This document shows positions 27,619-51,039 of a stretch of DNA of 51,382 nucleotides, one piece after another (the stretch's first letter is position 1; each line of letters begins with the position of its first letter). Origin of the DNA: Chloroflexi bacterium ADurb.Bin180 (GTDB lineage: Bacteria; Chloroflexota; Anaerolineae; UBA2200). The stretch covers positions 1-51,382 of the forward strand of contig MWCV01000017.1 in assembly GCA_002070215.1 (NCBI GenBank), read 5' to 3'. The translations under genes were made by a program, and so were the position numbers. Under the pieces are notes generated by a model, which did no database searches, was not told where the DNA came from, and was given only the letters and a program-made list of their open reading frames with translations.

Positions 27619-27624
27619 AGGCCT

Positions 27625-27864
27625 TGAGGCGTTGACGGAGACAAGTAGACGCTGCGGAGTTCAGCAGAGAGTCGCCGGGGGTGGGAGGCGACGAACCAGC
27701 GGCGTCGAAATCCACTCCAGAGCCGCAAGCGGGCGCACTCGCCCGGTTTGCCGGTTGGCCACCGATAACGGGCCGCGAGGCTCGGGAGATTCTTCCCGGG
27801 CAAAGAAAGGTGGCACCACGAACGCCCTCCTTCGTCCTTTCGAGGTAAGGGGGGCGTTTCTATT
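27625..27864 (+). ncRNA. T-box riboswitch leader (serine, UCC specifier)
   Basis: A leader that reads uncharged tRNA and controls serS. Stem I features are the AGTAGACG segment (27646 on) and the AGAGAGTCGCC ... GGCGAC distal part. The specifier loop reads GAAATCCACTCC, so the specifier codon is UCC at 27711-27713 (serine). The T-box itself is TGGCACCACG (27811-27820; consensus UGGNACCGCG); its variable base C pairs with discriminator G73, as required for tRNA-Ser. The alternative terminator is AACGCCCTCCTT pairing with AAGGGGGGCGTT (27821-27858), followed by TCTATT. Low charged tRNA-Ser should favour read-through into serS. Confidence 0.88.
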
Positions 27865-29218: not shown

Positions 29219-29305
<87 letters not shown>

Positions 29306-29328: not shown

Positions 29329-29419
29329 GGGGAGATGCCAGAGTGGACGATCGGAGCCGCCTGCTAAGCGGTTGAAGGGGGTAATGCCTCTTCCCAGGGT
29401 TCGAATCCCTGTCTCCCCG
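29329..29419 (+). tRNA. tRNA-Ser (anticodon GCU)
   Basis: A 91-base class II tRNA. The acceptor GGGGAGA (29329-29335) pairs with TCTCCCC (29412-29418), discriminator G. The anticodon loop CTGCTAA contains GCT; the variable arm is long and the T loop is TTCGAAT. CCA is not encoded. It lies 24 bases behind the other tRNA-Ser. Confidence 0.95.
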
Positions 29420-44324: not shown

Positions 44325-44353
44325 TTGACGGATTTGCGGTTCCCTGCTATTGT
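44325..44353 (+). promoter_or_regulatory. Promoter of the riboswitch-AOR operon
   Basis: TTGACG (44325-44330), 17 bases and TATTGT (44348-44353), about 60 bp before the structured leader. Confidence 0.65.
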
Positions 44354-44410
44354 ATGGTCAGTCCGCCGCGGTATGGCGAACGAATGGATTCTGACAACTA
44401 GATAACGGTA

Positions 44411-44576
44411 GTTCTAGCAGGCGCTCTGCCGCCGCTGCCATAGCGCTCCGACCCAAAGGCTCCCACGAGGAGGCGAGGGCGTTGGGCGCGGGGAGCGATC
44501 CCCGCACCTGCCGTGCTTGCAAAGGAGACTCGTCGCTCTTCCCTGTAGAAGAGAGACGTGGTCTCCTTTTTGTTTT
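44411..44576 (+). ncRNA. Molybdenum/tungsten cofactor (Moco) riboswitch-like leader with terminator
   Basis: A structured leader ahead of a tungsten-enzyme operon. Pairings visible: GCAGG (44417-44421) with CCTGC (44507-44511); CCCAA (44452-44456) with TTGGG (44482-44486); and a perfect 7-bp hairpin with a GCGA tetraloop (44488-44505). The conserved-looking CTCCGACCCAAAGGCTCCCA and CGAGGGCG stretches resemble the Moco RNA motif. A terminator follows: AAAGGAGAC (44521-44529) with GTCTCCTTT (44561-44569), inner stems, then TTGTTTT. A cofactor-dependent on/off switch is inferred. The family call is from memory of the consensus. Confidence 0.7.
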
Positions 44577-44672
44577 GGGCGTAAATAGCGTCTCAGAGGA
44601 GGTGCTTGAGAACTGAACTGGCCGAGAAGCGTCCGTGTGTCACGTCGCAATACTCATAAGGAGATGAAAGCA

Positions 44673-45452
44673 ATGACGTATGTCACAGAAAGGATGAAGG
44701 AGCTGCAGGAGCAGCTGCTCCAGGGCAAGCTTAGCCGCCGCGAGTTTATGCGCGGCGCGATGCTGCTTGGCCTGTCCGTTGGCGCCGCCGAGGCGCTGGC
44801 GGCCTGCGCCCCCAAGCTGGCGCCTACCGCAGTGCCTCCGACCAAGATACCTCCCACCAAGGTCCCGCCGACAGCGGTGGCACCCACCGAGGTACCTACG
44901 CCTACCGAGGCCCCGGCTGCGCCCGAAGCTCAGCAGGTAGTGATGGATAAGGACTGGCAGCTGGTGATCGACTATGACAAGTGCAGCGGCTGCCGCACCT
45001 GCGAGCTCGAGTGCGCCAAGCGTCACTACGGCGTAATCAATCCGGCGCTGGCGAACATCACCATCTACAAGGTGTATCCCGGCATTGATATCGCGATGTA
45101 CTGCCGCAACTGCTGGACCAGACCTTGCATCGACGCCTGCCCTACCACGCCAAAGGCAATCACGATCAGCGAGATCAGTGGTGCCTGCAAGGTTGATGCC
45201 AAGGTGTGCATCAAGTGCTTCAAGTGCGAGGAGGCCTGCATACAGCAGCATCTTCGCTTCCACCCTACCGAACAATACCCGCTGATGTGTGACCTGTGCG
45301 ACCTGGACCCGGCCTGCGTGGCGGCCTGCCCAGACAAGGCCCTGAGCGTCGTGCCGCCCTCCGTCGCGCCTGACACATGGGCCCAACCACTCGAAGAAGT
45401 CGTGGAGCAGCGCAAGGAAAAGCTCGGCCTGCTCAAGTATATGGAGGCGTGA
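44673..45452 (+). CDS. Four-cluster ferredoxin subunit with twin-arginine lipoprotein signal
   Basis: 259 residues from the ATG at 44673, nine bases behind AAGGAG. The N-terminus has a Tat motif SRREFMRGAM (R22-R23) followed by a hydrophobic stretch and a lipobox LAAC (C45), so it is probably exported folded and lipid-anchored. A Pro-Thr-rich linker (about 48-84) precedes a DmsB/AorA-like ferredoxin domain whose 16 cysteines form four groups: 104/107/110/114, 144/147/152/156, 179/182/185/189 and 206/209/215/219, enough for four [4Fe-4S] clusters. It lies 4 bp before the aldehyde oxidoreductase and should carry its electrons. Confidence 0.9.
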   Translation: MTYVTERMKELQEQLLQGKLSRREFMRGAMLLGLSVGAAEALAACAPKLAPTAVPPTKIPPTKVPPTAVAPTEVPTPTEAPAAPEAQQVVMDKDWQLVIDYDKCSGCRTCELECAKRHYGVINPALANITIYKVYPGIDIAMYCRNCWTRPCIDACPTTPKAITISEISGACKVDAKVCIKCFKCEEACIQQHLRFHPTEQYPLMCDLCDLDPACVAACPDKALSVVPPSVAPDTWAQPLEEVVEQRKEKLGLLKYMEA

Positions 45453-45456
45453 CCCG

Positions 45457-47286
45457 ATGGCAGACACATTGTTTGGATATGCTGGCAAGATCCTCGAAGT
45501 AGACCTGACCACACACAGCACCAAGACAGTCGAGGTTACTCCCGACCTGGCCAAGAAGTACCTGGGCGGCGTGGGCTTTGCCGCGCACTTTCTCTGGAGC
45601 CGGGTCAAGCCCGGCACGGACCCTCTGGGACCAGACAACCTCTTGATGTTTATGACGGGCCCGATGACTGGCACTGGCGCCTCGGGTACTCGCTGGAGCG
45701 CGGCTTTCAAGTCGCCGCACACCGGTGCCTGGGCGCAAACCGCTATGGGCGGCGACATTGGCCCCGAGCTCAAGTACGCCGGCTGGGATGGTATCATCAT
45801 CACCGGCAAGTCGGACGCTCCGGTCTATCTTTCGATCAACAACAGCAAGGTGCAGCTGAAGGACGCCAGGAAGCTGTGGGGAAAGGACACCCACGAGACA
45901 AGTCTGGCAATTGAGAAAGAGCTGAAGGACAGGCTGGTCAAGGTAGCGTGCATCGGTCCTGCTGGCGAGAACAGGGTTGTGATAGCTTCCATCAACAGCG
46001 AGAACTTTCGGGCCTTTGGGCGACTCGGCGGCGGAGCCGTGATGGGCGCCAAGAACCTCAAGGCTGTGGCCATTCGGGGTACCGGCGAGGTCAAGGTAGC
46101 GGACCTGGACGCCTTCTGGAAGCTGGTGGAGCAGCAGCGCGCGAATCTACTGTCGCCCGACAACTACTGGTTCCGCCGCTGGGGTACGCAGACCTACAAC
46201 GAGTGGCTTAACGACGTGGACCAGCTGGGACGCAAGAACTTTCAGGAAGCCTGGCTGGCCCCGGATGAGTTCAGAGAGGTCAGCGCCCAATACCTTGAAA
46301 AGACGTCCGAGCTCGGCCGACGCGCCTGTATTGGCTGCGCGAACCGCTGCTCGACCATGGGGATCGTTCGCAGTGGGCCCCATGCGGGACTGGTGAATGA
46401 AATCGACTATGAGGGCATTTCCAACGTTGGCGTGGGCTGCGGTCACACTGATTTCCGCACCTATATGCCCGTCGAGACCGAGATAGAGAAGCAGGGCCTT
46501 GACCTGATCTCCACCGGTAAGACCATCTCCTTCACCTCGGAGCTCTACCAGCGAGGCGTCCTGACCAAGGCGGACCTGGGCGGGTTGGATCTCACCTGGG
46601 GCAATACTGACGCCCAGATTGAGCTCGTCAAGATGATTGCCACCCGCAAGGGCATTGGCGACACCCTGGCTCTGGGTACGTACGAAGCGGGCCGGAAGAT
46701 CGGCCACGGCGCCGAGCAATACGCTATGGTCGCCGGCTTGCACAATGAGATGTCAGGTAGTGACCCGCGCAGCTCTGCCGCAATGATCAACACCGCGTAC
46801 GTGGCGGCAGAACGCGGCTCTTCCCACAATGCTCCGGCCGGCACCTGGGACGCACCAGACCCAGTCTGGCAGGACAAGATGACCCTCTTTGACTCGCTGG
46901 TGGTGTGCCTGTTTGTTTCGGTGGATGGCTGGGGTTCGGTCAATCCCATCAACCCAGACTATCTGGCTATGCTCAACTCGGCCACCGGCTGGAACATTGA
47001 CGAGAGAGGTTTCCTTCAAATTGGGGAGCGAATCGCCAACCTGGAGCATGCTTTCAACATCCGTGAGGGCTTCCGCAGAGCGGACTGGGAGTACTTGCCC
47101 CCTCGTATGTTTGAAGGCTTGCCCACTGGACCGAACGAGGGAGACAAGCTCACGCCCGAAATCGTCAAGTCCTTCCTTGACGAATTGTACACGCTTCGCG
47201 GCTGGGACGTGGCTACGGGCATCCCAACGCGGGCCAAGCTCGAGTCCCTTGACCTGAAAGACGTTGCCGACGAACTCAAGGTGTAG
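45457..47286 (+). CDS. Aldehyde:ferredoxin oxidoreductase (tungsten/pterin enzyme)
   Basis: 609 residues, normal for the AOR family, which oxidises aldehydes to acids (or the reverse) with a tungsto-bispterin cofactor and one [4Fe-4S] cluster. The N-terminal domain opens GYAGKILEVDLTTHSTKTVE; cofactor-region sequences include TGPMTGTGASGTRWSAAFKS and FGRLGGGAVMGAKNLKAVAI. Cluster cysteines are C291, C294 and C298 (CIGCANRC) and C484 (LVVCLF). No signal peptide is seen. The partner ferredoxin has a Tat signal, so either the enzyme is carried out with it or the ferredoxin works differently. Substrate unknown. Confidence 0.93.
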   Translation: MADTLFGYAGKILEVDLTTHSTKTVEVTPDLAKKYLGGVGFAAHFLWSRVKPGTDPLGPDNLLMFMTGPMTGTGASGTRWSAAFKSPHTGAWAQTAMGGDIGPELKYAGWDGIIITGKSDAPVYLSINNSKVQLKDARKLWGKDTHETSLAIEKELKDRLVKVACIGPAGENRVVIASINSENFRAFGRLGGGAVMGAKNLKAVAIRGTGEVKVADLDAFWKLVEQQRANLLSPDNYWFRRWGTQTYNEWLNDVDQLGRKNFQEAWLAPDEFREVSAQYLEKTSELGRRACIGCANRCSTMGIVRSGPHAGLVNEIDYEGISNVGVGCGHTDFRTYMPVETEIEKQGLDLISTGKTISFTSELYQRGVLTKADLGGLDLTWGNTDAQIELVKMIATRKGIGDTLALGTYEAGRKIGHGAEQYAMVAGLHNEMSGSDPRSSAAMINTAYVAAERGSSHNAPAGTWDAPDPVWQDKMTLFDSLVVCLFVSVDGWGSVNPINPDYLAMLNSATGWNIDERGFLQIGERIANLEHAFNIREGFRRADWEYLPPRMFEGLPTGPNEGDKLTPEIVKSFLDELYTLRGWDVATGIPTRAKLESLDLKDVADELKV

Positions 47287-47340
47287 TATCCGTTAGTTCC
47301 TGGAGCGGTCTGCCGCTCCGCAAGTGACATCTCTCTCTGC

Positions 47341-47382
47341 AGGCTGGTGGGCGCTGGTCTGACGCCCACCAGCCTGCTTGTT
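47341..47382 (+). terminator. Terminator after the AOR operon
   Basis: A perfect 13-bp stem (47341-47353 with 47363-47375) and nine-base loop, followed by GCTTGTT. Confidence 0.85.
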
Positions 47383-47506: not shown

Positions 47507-48754
47507 TCACGAGTTGGGCAAGGCGCGGAGGGGATAGACGGCCGAGTGCGCCACCTTGCCTGCCCACCAGATGCGGATTTCCATCGTGTCTGTGTCAGTG
47601 TTGGGGATGATGTGAACATCAACCTCCTCGCGTAGGGGGACATTGGGTACCTCAATGTCATGGTTGAAGAGAGAGATGCGGCGGTAGCCATTGACGACTC
47701 TGGTCTCGTGCAGGCAGAAGACGTCTTTGGCTTCACGGTAGGGTTTGGGCAGAGCTAGGGGCCGGAAGAGGGTGCAGCCGGACGTTCTAGCCTGGTCGAA
47801 ACGGAGACTGGGGATCTGGCCGGTGGTAGCGTGGACTTGATGGTTGTTGTAGCGGTCCACCTCGTAGCGCAGGACAGCGCGCACTTCGTCAATGGTAGAG
47901 AGGTGATCCAGGGCAGATTGGCGGACGATGCGATCCTGCATCCAGCGGAAGGTTCTCTCCACTTTTCCTTTGGCCTGCGGCGAAAGGGCATAGATTACAT
48001 CCACGCCCAGGGTACGCATGACCTGGCGCCACTGGGGGTCGACATCGTCGGTGGTGAGAACGTGGTTGCGCCAGAAGCTATCCCGTTTCTGTACGAAGCG
48101 GAAGACGCGCAAGTTATCGACATAGTAGCGCAATGGCAAGCCATAGGTTTGCATAAGGGTTTGCGCTGCCTGGATATGTGCCCAGGCAGTCTCGTGCGGG
48201 AAGAAATCGGCGAACAACAGTTTGCGGCTGTAGTCGTCAATGGAGGTGATGAGCGTCCATTTTTCTGCGGCGTAGGGTGACCAGAGGTGCACCGAAGCAT
48301 CATGCTGCACTAGGGCGCCAATAGCGGCGGTCAGGACTTGGCGATCATGAACTTGGCTCTTGCGGTGTGGCCTGTAGCAGCCTAGAGCCTTGGCTCTCGT
48401 GATGATGGTGGTAGTGGAGACGGTGATGCCGTGTTGACTGAGGCGGTCACGCAATGCCGAGTAGTTGTAGTCGGAGATGGGGAGTTGTGGGTCTTCTACC
48501 AGCCCTTTCTCTCGCAGCAACTCTGCTCTGATGCTCTCCTCTGCCTCGGACGAGAGGCGGGCCGGTGTTCGCCGATGGTAGTCAATGGTGAAGCGGTCTG
48601 GCGCACGCCGGAACTCTCTGAGCAGGGCAAAGAAACGCGTCTTTCCCAGATGCAGCATCTCCTCTACTTCGGACCGGCACAGCGTACCTTGGCAGTAGCC
48701 CAACAGCAGCACCCGGATCTGCTCTGCAGTGAAGCGCCGATGTATCTGATCCAT
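47507..48754 (-). CDS. DDE transposase with rve integrase core (IS481/ISNCY-like)
   Basis: 415 residues from the ATG at 48754, with GGGAGGG five bases upstream; the frame continues earlier but without a ribosome-binding site. An N-terminal helix-turn-helix region (about 1-90, TAEQIRVLLLGYCQGTLCRS) leads to an integrase core with Asp in TSIDDYSRKLLFADF, Asp in YYVDNLRVF and Glu in AKGKVERTFRWMQ, the DDE triad. The protein appears full length. Assignment to IS481-like or ISNCY is approximate. Confidence 0.88.
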   Translation of the reverse strand: MDQIHRRFTAEQIRVLLLGYCQGTLCRSEVEEMLHLGKTRFFALLREFRRAPDRFTIDYHRRTPARLSSEAEESIRAELLREKGLVEDPQLPISDYNYSALRDRLSQHGITVSTTTIITRAKALGCYRPHRKSQVHDRQVLTAAIGALVQHDASVHLWSPYAAEKWTLITSIDDYSRKLLFADFFPHETAWAHIQAAQTLMQTYGLPLRYYVDNLRVFRFVQKRDSFWRNHVLTTDDVDPQWRQVMRTLGVDVIYALSPQAKGKVERTFRWMQDRIVRQSALDHLSTIDEVRAVLRYEVDRYNNHQVHATTGQIPSLRFDQARTSGCTLFRPLALPKPYREAKDVFCLHETRVVNGYRRISLFNHDIEVPNVPLREEVDVHIIPNTDTDTMEIRIWWAGKVAHSAVYPLRALPNS

Positions 48755-48809
48755 TGATCCCTCCCATAAGAACTGGAGGAATCTACCACAAATCGTGGGC
48801 GGCAAGGCC
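48671..48809. repeat. 139-bp direct repeat, copy 1
   Basis: Identical by eye to 51040-51178. It contains the first codons and ribosome-binding site of the transposase gene at 47507-48754 and ends exactly where the IS21-type element begins. Confidence 0.9.
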
Positions 48810-48881
48810 TGTCAAAGCCAGCATAGAATTGATCAAAATAGCCAACTTAAAACTGTCCAGCACACATGTCCGACTTGTGGG

Positions 48882-49667
48882 TTAGGCCTCCTTCTGTGGC
48901 TCGGCCAGTTCGGTGAAGACGCCGGCCTTGCGTTTCTCCCGCAGCCGATAGCTCTGGCCGCGGATGTTGATCGTCGTCGAGAAGTGCAGCAGCCGGTCCA
49001 GGATGGCCGCTGCAAGTACCTGGTCGGCGAAGATGTCGCCCCAGTCGCCATAGGACTTGTTCGAGGTGAGGATGATTGAGCCTCGGCCATAGCGGCGACT
49101 GACCAGTTGGAACAGGAACTGAGCAGCCATGCGGTCGAGAGGGAAGTAACCCATCTCGTCCAGGATGAGCAACCTGGGACGGCAGAGCGTGTGCAAGCGG
49201 TGGTCCAGGCGGTCCTCCTTGGCATCGCGGTGCAGTTGCTCGAGCAAGTCGACCATAGTGGTGAAGTAGACGCTGGTGGCATGCTGGATGGCCACCATGC
49301 CCAGGGCAATGGCCAGGTGCGTCTTGCCGACGCCGGGCGGTCCCAGAAAGAGGACATTCTCTCCGTTGGCGATGAAGCTGAGGCTTGCCAGCTCGCGGAC
49401 CTGACGTTCGCTGATGGCCGGTTGGAAGGAGAAGTCGAATTGGTCCAAGGTTTTGGCGAAGGGGAAGTGAGCCAGTTTGCTCTTCATGGCCACGTCCCGC
49501 TCGTAGCGCGCCGAGACCTCGGTGTCGAGGAGTTGCTCCAAGAACTCGCAGTAGGTCCAGTCATGCTTCGCTGCTTCCTGGGCTATGGCATCGATGCACT
49601 CAGCCATTCTGGGCAGCTTGAGCCGGGCCAGATGAGATTGCACGCGAGGATAGGCCACATCGCTCAT
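48882..49667 (-). CDS. istB: IS21 helper ATPase IstB
   Basis: 261 residues. An AAA+ ATPase that helps IstA choose and bend the target. Walker A is LGPPGVGKTHLAIALG near residue 110, Walker B LLILDEMGYFPLDR near 168. It starts on the stop of istA (TGATG overlap), typical of IS21. It ends at TEL-AEPQKEA, seemingly intact. Confidence 0.93.
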   Translation of the reverse strand: MSDVAYPRVQSHLARLKLPRMAECIDAIAQEAAKHDWTYCEFLEQLLDTEVSARYERDVAMKSKLAHFPFAKTLDQFDFSFQPAISERQVRELASLSFIANGENVLFLGPPGVGKTHLAIALGMVAIQHATSVYFTTMVDLLEQLHRDAKEDRLDHRLHTLCRPRLLILDEMGYFPLDRMAAQFLFQLVSRRYGRGSIILTSNKSYGDWGDIFADQVLAAAILDRLLHFSTTINIRGQSYRLREKRKAGVFTELAEPQKEA

Positions 49668-50920
49668 CAGGCCACTCCCAGGAGCTGGTCGTACCAGACG
49701 AGCGGCCTGATCTCGACCTCGGGCGCGGCAGGTAGGTCGGCCAGGCTCTGTGGAGCAGGCAGTTGGACTGCGCTGGGTCGCCGCGCGGGTGGTGAGCTGT
49801 GACCAAGGCGGGCGTAGTGAGCCGCCAGTGCGATACGCTGGTTACGACCCTCTGCCAGGCGGTGACGGGCGATTTCTTCGTCCCGAGCGTCGAGGACAAG
49901 CAGTTGGCCGTCTTCGCTCTCCTTCACTTGGAGCAGTTGCCCGGCATATGCGGCGGGCACCGAGTAGTAGTTGCCGTCGTAGCTCAAGAAGCAGTCTTTG
50001 GTGGAGCGCCGGAAGGCGATCAGGCTGGTGTCATAGTCAGGCTTGCCATCCAGAGGCAGCAGAGGCTCCTGCGCCAAGCGCTCCAATGGCACCTCAGCAG
50101 TCGTACCGTGCACGCGCCGGTTCGCCGTACCGTCCAGCCACGCCTGGCACTGGCGGTTGAGGTCGGCCAGGTCCACAAAGGTCAGTCCGGGCCAGAAGTT
50201 GCCCCGCACGTAGCGCACACTCGACTCGACCTTGCCTTTGGTCTGCGCCCGGTACGGCTGGCAGGCCCGCGGCGTGAAGCCGTAGTAGTCGGCAAAGTCG
50301 AGGTAGCGCGGGTTCCAGTGCACCGCTCCAGCGGCTCTTTCCAAAACCGCTGTCTTGAGGTTGTCGTGCAGCACAACACGCGGCACACCCCCGAAGTAGT
50401 GAAAGGCATGCATGTGGCAGCGCAGCCACCACGCCGCATCCGCCGACACGGTGAACTCCAGGTACAAGCTGCGCGACCAGCCCAGCATCATCAAGAAGGC
50501 ATACAACCGGCGTCGGCAGCCATGGTGCATGATGAACCCAAAGTGCGCCCAGTCCACCTGCGCTTGCTCGCCTGGCTCGGTCTCAAAGCGCACCGTAGCT
50601 TGGTGCCGTCTGGCTTGCCGGTAGGGTTGCACAAAGCTCTTCAGCAGGCTCCAGCTGCCCTGGTAGCCTTGCCTCTGCAGCTCGTCCAACAGCTTCCGGC
50701 AGTTGTAGACCCCCTCTGCCATCCGCTTCTCCAGGTACGCAATGAACGGGTCGATCTTCCTGACCCTGGCCTTGCGCTTTCGTGGCAGCGGGCTGACTGG
50801 GCCATTGACGATGGTGCGAATCGTCGCGCGACCATGCCCACTGCTACGGGCAATCTCGCTGATGGTCACACCTCTGCGGTACAGGTCTTTGATCATGAAT
50901 CGTATCTCCACTTTCAGCAT
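49667..50920 (-). CDS. istA: IS21 transposase IstA
   Basis: 417 residues from the ATG at 50920, with GAGGAG 10 bases upstream (an ATG at 50941 is an alternative). An N-terminal helix-turn-helix (YRRGVTISEIARSSGHGRAT) is followed by the DDE integrase core: Asp in QVDWAHFGF, Asp in VLHDNLKTAV, Glu in TKGKVESSVRYV. The C-terminal Mu-type region follows to residue 417. The gene appears complete, so the element may still be active. Confidence 0.93.
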   Translation of the reverse strand: MLKVEIRFMIKDLYRRGVTISEIARSSGHGRATIRTIVNGPVSPLPRKRKARVRKIDPFIAYLEKRMAEGVYNCRKLLDELQRQGYQGSWSLLKSFVQPYRQARRHQATVRFETEPGEQAQVDWAHFGFIMHHGCRRRLYAFLMMLGWSRSLYLEFTVSADAAWWLRCHMHAFHYFGGVPRVVLHDNLKTAVLERAAGAVHWNPRYLDFADYYGFTPRACQPYRAQTKGKVESSVRYVRGNFWPGLTFVDLADLNRQCQAWLDGTANRRVHGTTAEVPLERLAQEPLLPLDGKPDYDTSLIAFRRSTKDCFLSYDGNYYSVPAAYAGQLLQVKESEDGQLLVLDARDEEIARHRLAEGRNQRIALAAHYARLGHSSPPARRPSAVQLPAPQSLADLPAAPEVEIRPLVWYDQLLGVA

Positions 50921-51039
50921 AGGTGGTCCACTCCTCGGCATTCTGGCTTACCGGGCCATTGTGCCGCCAGCGCGACCACTTGACCAAAGTGGACAGTTTT
51001 ATCCTGGCTTTTTTGGACATTTTAATCCTGGCTGTGACA

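Follow-up and report, generated by a model that had tools for sequence, protein, structure and literature searches.

The window (the whole stretch of 51,382 nucleotides from Chloroflexi bacterium ADurb.Bin180 that was analysed) contains at 44325-47382 a two-gene unit that probably encodes an extracytoplasmic tungsten aldehyde oxidoreductase. As predicted from sequence, the catalytic subunit WorL would be exported together with its small subunit WorS and stay attached to the outside of the cytoplasmic membrane. The unit very probably represents a branch of tungsten enzymes with Tat export that has not so far been described as exported. Export is more certain than the function as an aldehyde oxidase or the nature of the electron acceptor.

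The window is one contig (C17) of a draft genome of 3.13 Mb that is 95% complete. The gene order leader, worS, worL was read directly from the sequence. ABC transporter genes are located 5' of the unit, while transposase-like genes, recognised by eye at 47507-50941 on the minus strand, follow directly 3' of it. The following features were defined:

44434..44541, plus strand: Moco/Tuco riboswitch aptamer RF01055 of the P3-lacking (tungsten-cofactor) type (cmscan 27.8 bits, E 1.2e-4, below gathering)
44521..44574, plus strand: intrinsic terminator; its 5' arm AAAGGAGAC contains the 3' strand GGAG of aptamer stem P1 (sequence, folds)
44658..44663, plus strand: Shine-Dalgarno sequence AAGGAG of worS, 9 nt before ATG 44673, same in the ortholog leader
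44673..45452, plus strand: worS, AOR small subunit, predicted Tat lipoprotein with four [4Fe-4S] clusters (ORF, PDB matches)
44733..44750, plus strand: twin-arginine motif SRREFM, residues 21-26
44805..44807, plus strand: lipobox cysteine C45 (LAAC)
44808..44936, plus strand: Pro/Thr-rich linker, residues 46-88 (sequence)
44961..45353, plus strand: ferredoxin domain with 16 Cys, residues 97-227 (domain and PDB matches, conservation)
45457..47286, plus strand: worL, AOR family catalytic subunit without signal (AFOR_N, AFOR_C; 1aor and 9mqx matches)
46186..46188, plus strand: Thr244, position of PfAOR Thr243 (alignment)
46327..46350, plus strand: [4Fe-4S] cysteines C291, C294 and C298 (PfAOR C288, C291, C295; sequence, alignment)
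46411..46413, plus strand: Glu319, position of PfAOR Glu313, absent in clade 41 (alignment)
46825..46827, plus strand: His457, position of PfAOR His448 (alignment)
46906..46908, plus strand: fourth [4Fe-4S] cysteine C484 (PfAOR C494; sequence, alignment)

The worS frame runs from ATG 44673 to the stop codon at 45450-45452, and worL starts with ATG 45457, 4 bp past the end of worS; as the initial annotation had stated, this AOR carries no signal of its own. Family membership of WorL is clear from its AFOR_N (257 bits) and AFOR_C (291 bits) domains and from its PDB matches (9mqx_D, 1aor). WorS matched the AOR-family small subunits 6x6u_B, 6x1o_B, 9mqx_E and 8c0z_C, with E-values from 8e-25 to 1.5e-18 for 6x6u_B, 9mqx_E and 8c0z_C. 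By its relatives the genome belongs to the class Anaerolineae of the Chloroflexota; Anaerolineales bacterium UBA2200 is the closest relative with a name, and its AOR is 87% identical to that of the window.

The N-terminus of WorS (SRREFMRGAMLLGLSVGAAEALAAC) combines a twin-arginine motif, an h-region and a lipobox. The SRREFM motif, the LAAC lipobox with C45, the Pro-Thr linker and the 16 cluster cysteines that had been noticed earlier were all recovered, and the RR pair, C45 and the cysteines, which fall into four groups, are invariant in six WorS relatives. The RR pair and lipobox are also kept in the same-genus ortholog. Comparison with this ortholog gave dN/dS values of 0.27 (signal), 0.053 (ferredoxin part) and 0.074 (AOR); the WorS signal is thus under purifying selection. 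The Shine-Dalgarno sequence 9 nt before ATG 44673 places the signal within the translated part. A strict pattern for Tat motif plus lipobox had no match in 200,000 shuffles of the WorS N-terminus. The same pattern was found in 35 out of 6,483 six-frame ORFs of the fetched loci (repeats included). Apart from one AOR with a signal of its own, all of these were either reductive dehalogenase-like proteins or small subunits of AORs. The Tat filter permits charge in the h-region; a version without charge misses the window's own signal.

With the Tat profiles, the window's signal reached only 10.7 bits in TIGR01409 (cut-off 16.7; ortholog 15.6) and, like every WorS scored, stayed below the cut-off of Pfam TAT_signal. 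Four Anaerolineae paralogs (21-24 bits) and a Desulfobacteraceae WorS (25.7) passed TIGR01409. The low profile scores of the window would fit a cytoplasmic location of both subunits, the signal being a membrane-binding segment or no longer working. This is very improbable in view of the purifying selection on the signal and of the paralogs with the same motif that exceed the cut-off; an N-terminal Tat signal would moreover put the ferredoxin domain outside.

A profile of six Tat-WorS was searched against 298 Anaerolineae genomes. Full-length matches, with signal and ferredoxin part, were obtained at 12 places. They fall in 7 genomes: the window's genome has three (C17 and a pair on C29) and its same-genus relative G106 four (C35, C4 and a pair on C41); G082, G053, G139, G074 and G029 have a single one each. 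An AOR lies directly downstream at all 12 places. A thirteenth match (G074 C13:16633-16863) consists of the signal only and lies inside an AOR reading frame, and the rest, among the matches listed, cover essentially the ferredoxin domain only and have no signal. Two other Anaerolineae genomes, G074 and G087, encode an AOR catalytic subunit that bears a Tat-lipobox signal itself. That of G074 (L208 2128-4368) has an N-terminal region with GRREFMRYATLLGLSLGAAEALAAC followed by a Pro/Thr linker, and that of G087 (L230 412-2631) is 91% identical to it. The signal here stands on the catalytic chain, though the tree puts this AOR lineage nearer to PfAOR than to the window. In the class of a Desulfobacteraceae relative (L044), further AORs follow Tat-WorS genes.

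Besides TatC and, above cut-off, the tungstate-binding protein WtpA, the genome of the window encodes a TatA, located in the C29 cluster that also holds two paralogous pairs. The related genomes include metagenome assemblies, which was counted against the export reading.

Two arrangements had been proposed initially for the unit, namely hitch-hiker export of the leaderless AOR with its lipoprotein partner, or a split in which the ferredoxin serves another enzyme outside. The first is preferred here, because WorS is homologous to small subunits present in AOR PDB entries, because a Tat-WorS adjoins 25 of the 26 AORs of the window's branch (see below) and because two relatives carry the signal on the AOR itself. 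In the split arrangement, WorS would be exported for another enzyme, e.g. a reductive dehalogenase, and WorL would stay in the cytoplasm. The missing signal of WorL and the Tat-exported reductive dehalogenase-like genes adjoining paralogous modules could be understood in this way, yet an AOR stands beside every Tat-WorS checked, with a gap of 4 bp in the window, WorS resembles AOR small subunits, own-signal AORs exist in two genomes and no other exported enzyme is encoded at the window locus. The split is therefore unlikely. Co-translocation of a leaderless catalytic subunit by hitch-hiking with a Tat-signal partner is described for PaoABC of E. coli, which oxidises aldehydes in the periplasm (PMC4273604). 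PaoABC differs from the window unit in being a molybdenum enzyme of the xanthine oxidase family, an unrelated protein family.

The statement that characterised AOR enzymes are cytoplasmic, made when the window was first read, omits the 'Class V WORs', which are predicted to be periplasmic from the Tat signal on WorS (PMC13328260). In that study (June 2026), Tat-exported AORs were assigned to clade 41 (YdhV type) only. In an 84-row AOR tree, the window's AOR and 23 others, from Anaerolineae and Desulfobacterota, formed one branch with support of 98/97, and the representatives of clade 41 (E. coli YdhV, Shewanella and Desulfobacterota relatives) formed another group. Every bootstrap tree recovered each of the two as one side of a split. 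In a 94-row tree the window's branch comprised 26 rows, 24 of them scored as Tat; L186 also has a Tat motif, at the edge of the reading frame, and L020, without Tat signal, is the one row not adjoined by a Tat-WorS. Elsewhere in the tree, away from the Tat groups, a single row (L187) was flagged as Tat; inspection by eye led to its dismissal as a false positive. Forcing the window's branch together with clade 41 was 13.2 log units worse (p-AU 0.059), a value at which one joint clade of Tat-AORs is not formally rejected. The tree places the window's AOR outside clade 41, with this p-value as the limit.

Residues of the active site agree with this placement. Thr243, Glu313, Tyr427 and His448 form the conserved second shell of aldehyde-oxidising members, and Cys336 is a metal ligand of YdhV (PMC12096430). 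The window WorL has all four [4Fe-4S] cysteines and keeps three of the four second-shell residues (Thr, Glu, His); the position of PfAOR Tyr427 is occupied by Ser, and the substrate may therefore differ from an ordinary aldehyde. Across the 26 rows of the branch, the Fe-S cysteines were conserved in 26, Thr243 in 25, Glu313 in 24 and His448 in 24. By contrast, Glu313 was found in none of the 14 clade 41 rows, and Cys336 in 12 of these 14 vs 0/26 in the window's branch. Spare cysteines of WorL, considered as a possible mark of export, are fewer in the window's branch (p 0.011) but more numerous in clade 41, and their count was therefore given no weight.

The window unit shares with the Class V WORs of clade 41 (E. 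coli YdhV/YdhY, C. somerae CsWOR41; PMC13328260) the combination of a signal-less WorL and a four-cluster Tat-WorS, the Tat assignment of the window WorS resting on motif, h-region, lipobox and conservation with a sub-threshold TIGR01409 score. Unlike them, it belongs to another branch, lacks the YdhV-type Cys ligand, keeps Glu313 and Thr243, and combines only two genes, a canonical Tat lipobox and a tungsten-type riboswitch. Class V WORs have at least one further subunit, and inspection of the neighbouring ORFs revealed no third subunit at the window locus. That the unit is nevertheless an ordinary Class V WOR, using molybdenum and not acting as aldehyde oxidase, is highly unlikely: the common Tat-WorS/WorL plan and the p-AU value speak for it, while the separate groups in all bootstrap trees, the missing Cys336, the conserved Glu313, the P3-lacking riboswitch and the two-subunit composition speak against it. 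YdhY itself (L119 6852-7478) has a lipobox-like LLGC after TRLEFLR, without an RR pair.

A WorS with four [4Fe-4S] clusters also accompanies WorL in Class II WORs (PfASOR 6x6u, CbGOR) and in AorAB of Aromatoleum (8c0z), and the window WorS is homologous by sequence to 6x6u_B and 8c0z_C. These enzymes, unlike the window unit, are described as cytoplasmic, with a WorS devoid of Tat signal and with ferredoxin or NAD as acceptor. PfAOR (1aor) resembles the window WorL in family, [4Fe-4S] cysteines and the Thr243, Glu313 and His448 positions; it differs in having Tyr427 in place of Ser, in lacking a WorS and in being cytoplasmic.

The leader (44325-44672) contains a riboswitch that had been missed in the initial annotation. 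An Rfam search at gathering gave no match in this leader, and the e-value mode gave RF01055. The window copy shares the aptamer fold of this Moco/Tuco family as the P3-lacking variant (tungsten cofactor, PMC2408646), its 27.8 bits and the 30.4 bits of the ortholog leader both lying under the gathering score of 36. RF01055 was detected before nine further Tat-AOR operons, i.e. that of the ortholog and eight others at 38-51 bits, above gathering, one of which precedes the own-signal AOR in L208. Among ten aligned leaders, 10 of 28 base pairs were changed on both sides. Stem P3 was missing in all three leaders for which the model alignment was printed (the window and two others). Loss of P3 correlates with use of the tungsten cofactor, whose genes were present in 17 of the 19 organisms whose riboswitch copies lack P3 (PMC2408646). 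Since the 3' strand of P1 is part of the 5' arm of the terminator, the leader appears to be arranged as an ON switch. The nine related leaders likewise show a hairpin formed by the P1 arm and, 3' of it, a U-rich stretch. No riboswitch was detected at gathering in the Desulfobacterota loci and L230. The motif was present at one of eight other AOR loci of the window's genome, where RF01055 (L008 164-276, 44.4 bits) stands before another AOR.

In the mechanism that we infer, which extends to export, lipidation, ligand, substrate and direction of electron flow, the aptamer-bound tungsten cofactor would hold GGAG in P1, so that the terminator could not form. WorL would fold in the cytoplasm around tungstopterin and its [4Fe-4S] cluster and bind WorS, and the folded pair would be exported by the Tat pathway on the WorS signal. 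Lipidation of C45 would then tether the pair to the outer face of the cytoplasmic membrane, where WorL would oxidise an aldehyde to the acid. Electrons would travel along the four WorS clusters and reach an acceptor in the membrane or at the surface; no membrane electron acceptor is encoded at the window locus.

If this is true, these Anaerolineae can oxidise aldehydes outside the cell. Tat-exported AOR-family enzymes have so far been described only in the YdhV clade, whose members are without the aldehyde-oxidising residues and catalyse no known reaction. The window's branch keeps most of these residues; its Anaerolineae members also have a predicted lipid anchor and a riboswitch of the tungsten type. 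Whether a tungsten enzyme oxidises aldehydes outside the cell would become directly testable, and the assignment of the whole exported class to clade 41 alone would need revising.

Reductive dehalogenase-like genes are located near paralogous Tat-AOR modules, but none at the locus of the window unit. They were identified as follows:

L142 5254-6720 and 10601-12193: reductive dehalogenase-like, TIGR02486 passed
L143 1788-3044: reductive dehalogenase-like, TIGR02486 passed
L208 5434-6885: reductive dehalogenase-like, TIGR02486 passed
L208 12182-13609, L205 2060-3577 and L209 6613-8352: reductive dehalogenase-like

The four proteins tested with TIGR02486 (both of L142, that of L143 and L208 5434-6885) scored about 200-210 bits (cut-off 160), and most of the proteins listed carry a Tat-lipobox signal. 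Among ten chosen genomes, TIGR02486 was over cut-off in all seven with Tat-AOR and in none of the three without. It is conceivable, though rather doubtful, that this second exported branch of tungsten enzymes oxidises external aldehydes and in Anaerolineae passes the electrons, at the outer face of the membrane, to the Tat-exported reductive dehalogenases.

A few further observations were made at these loci. In Desulfobacteraceae BB40 (L044 4520-9800), two tandem Tat-WorS/AOR pairs are followed by a third Tat ferredoxin and, by eye, by FAD- and Fe-S-type genes. In the genus relative, similar-looking proteins (L042 3417-4262 with LLFDGGN, L143 3152-3931 with LLLDGGN; by eye) adjoin AOR genes. 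Elsewhere in the window, a T-box leader (27623-27842, 99.7 bits) and two adjacent tRNA genes (29219-29304 and 29329-29419) were found.
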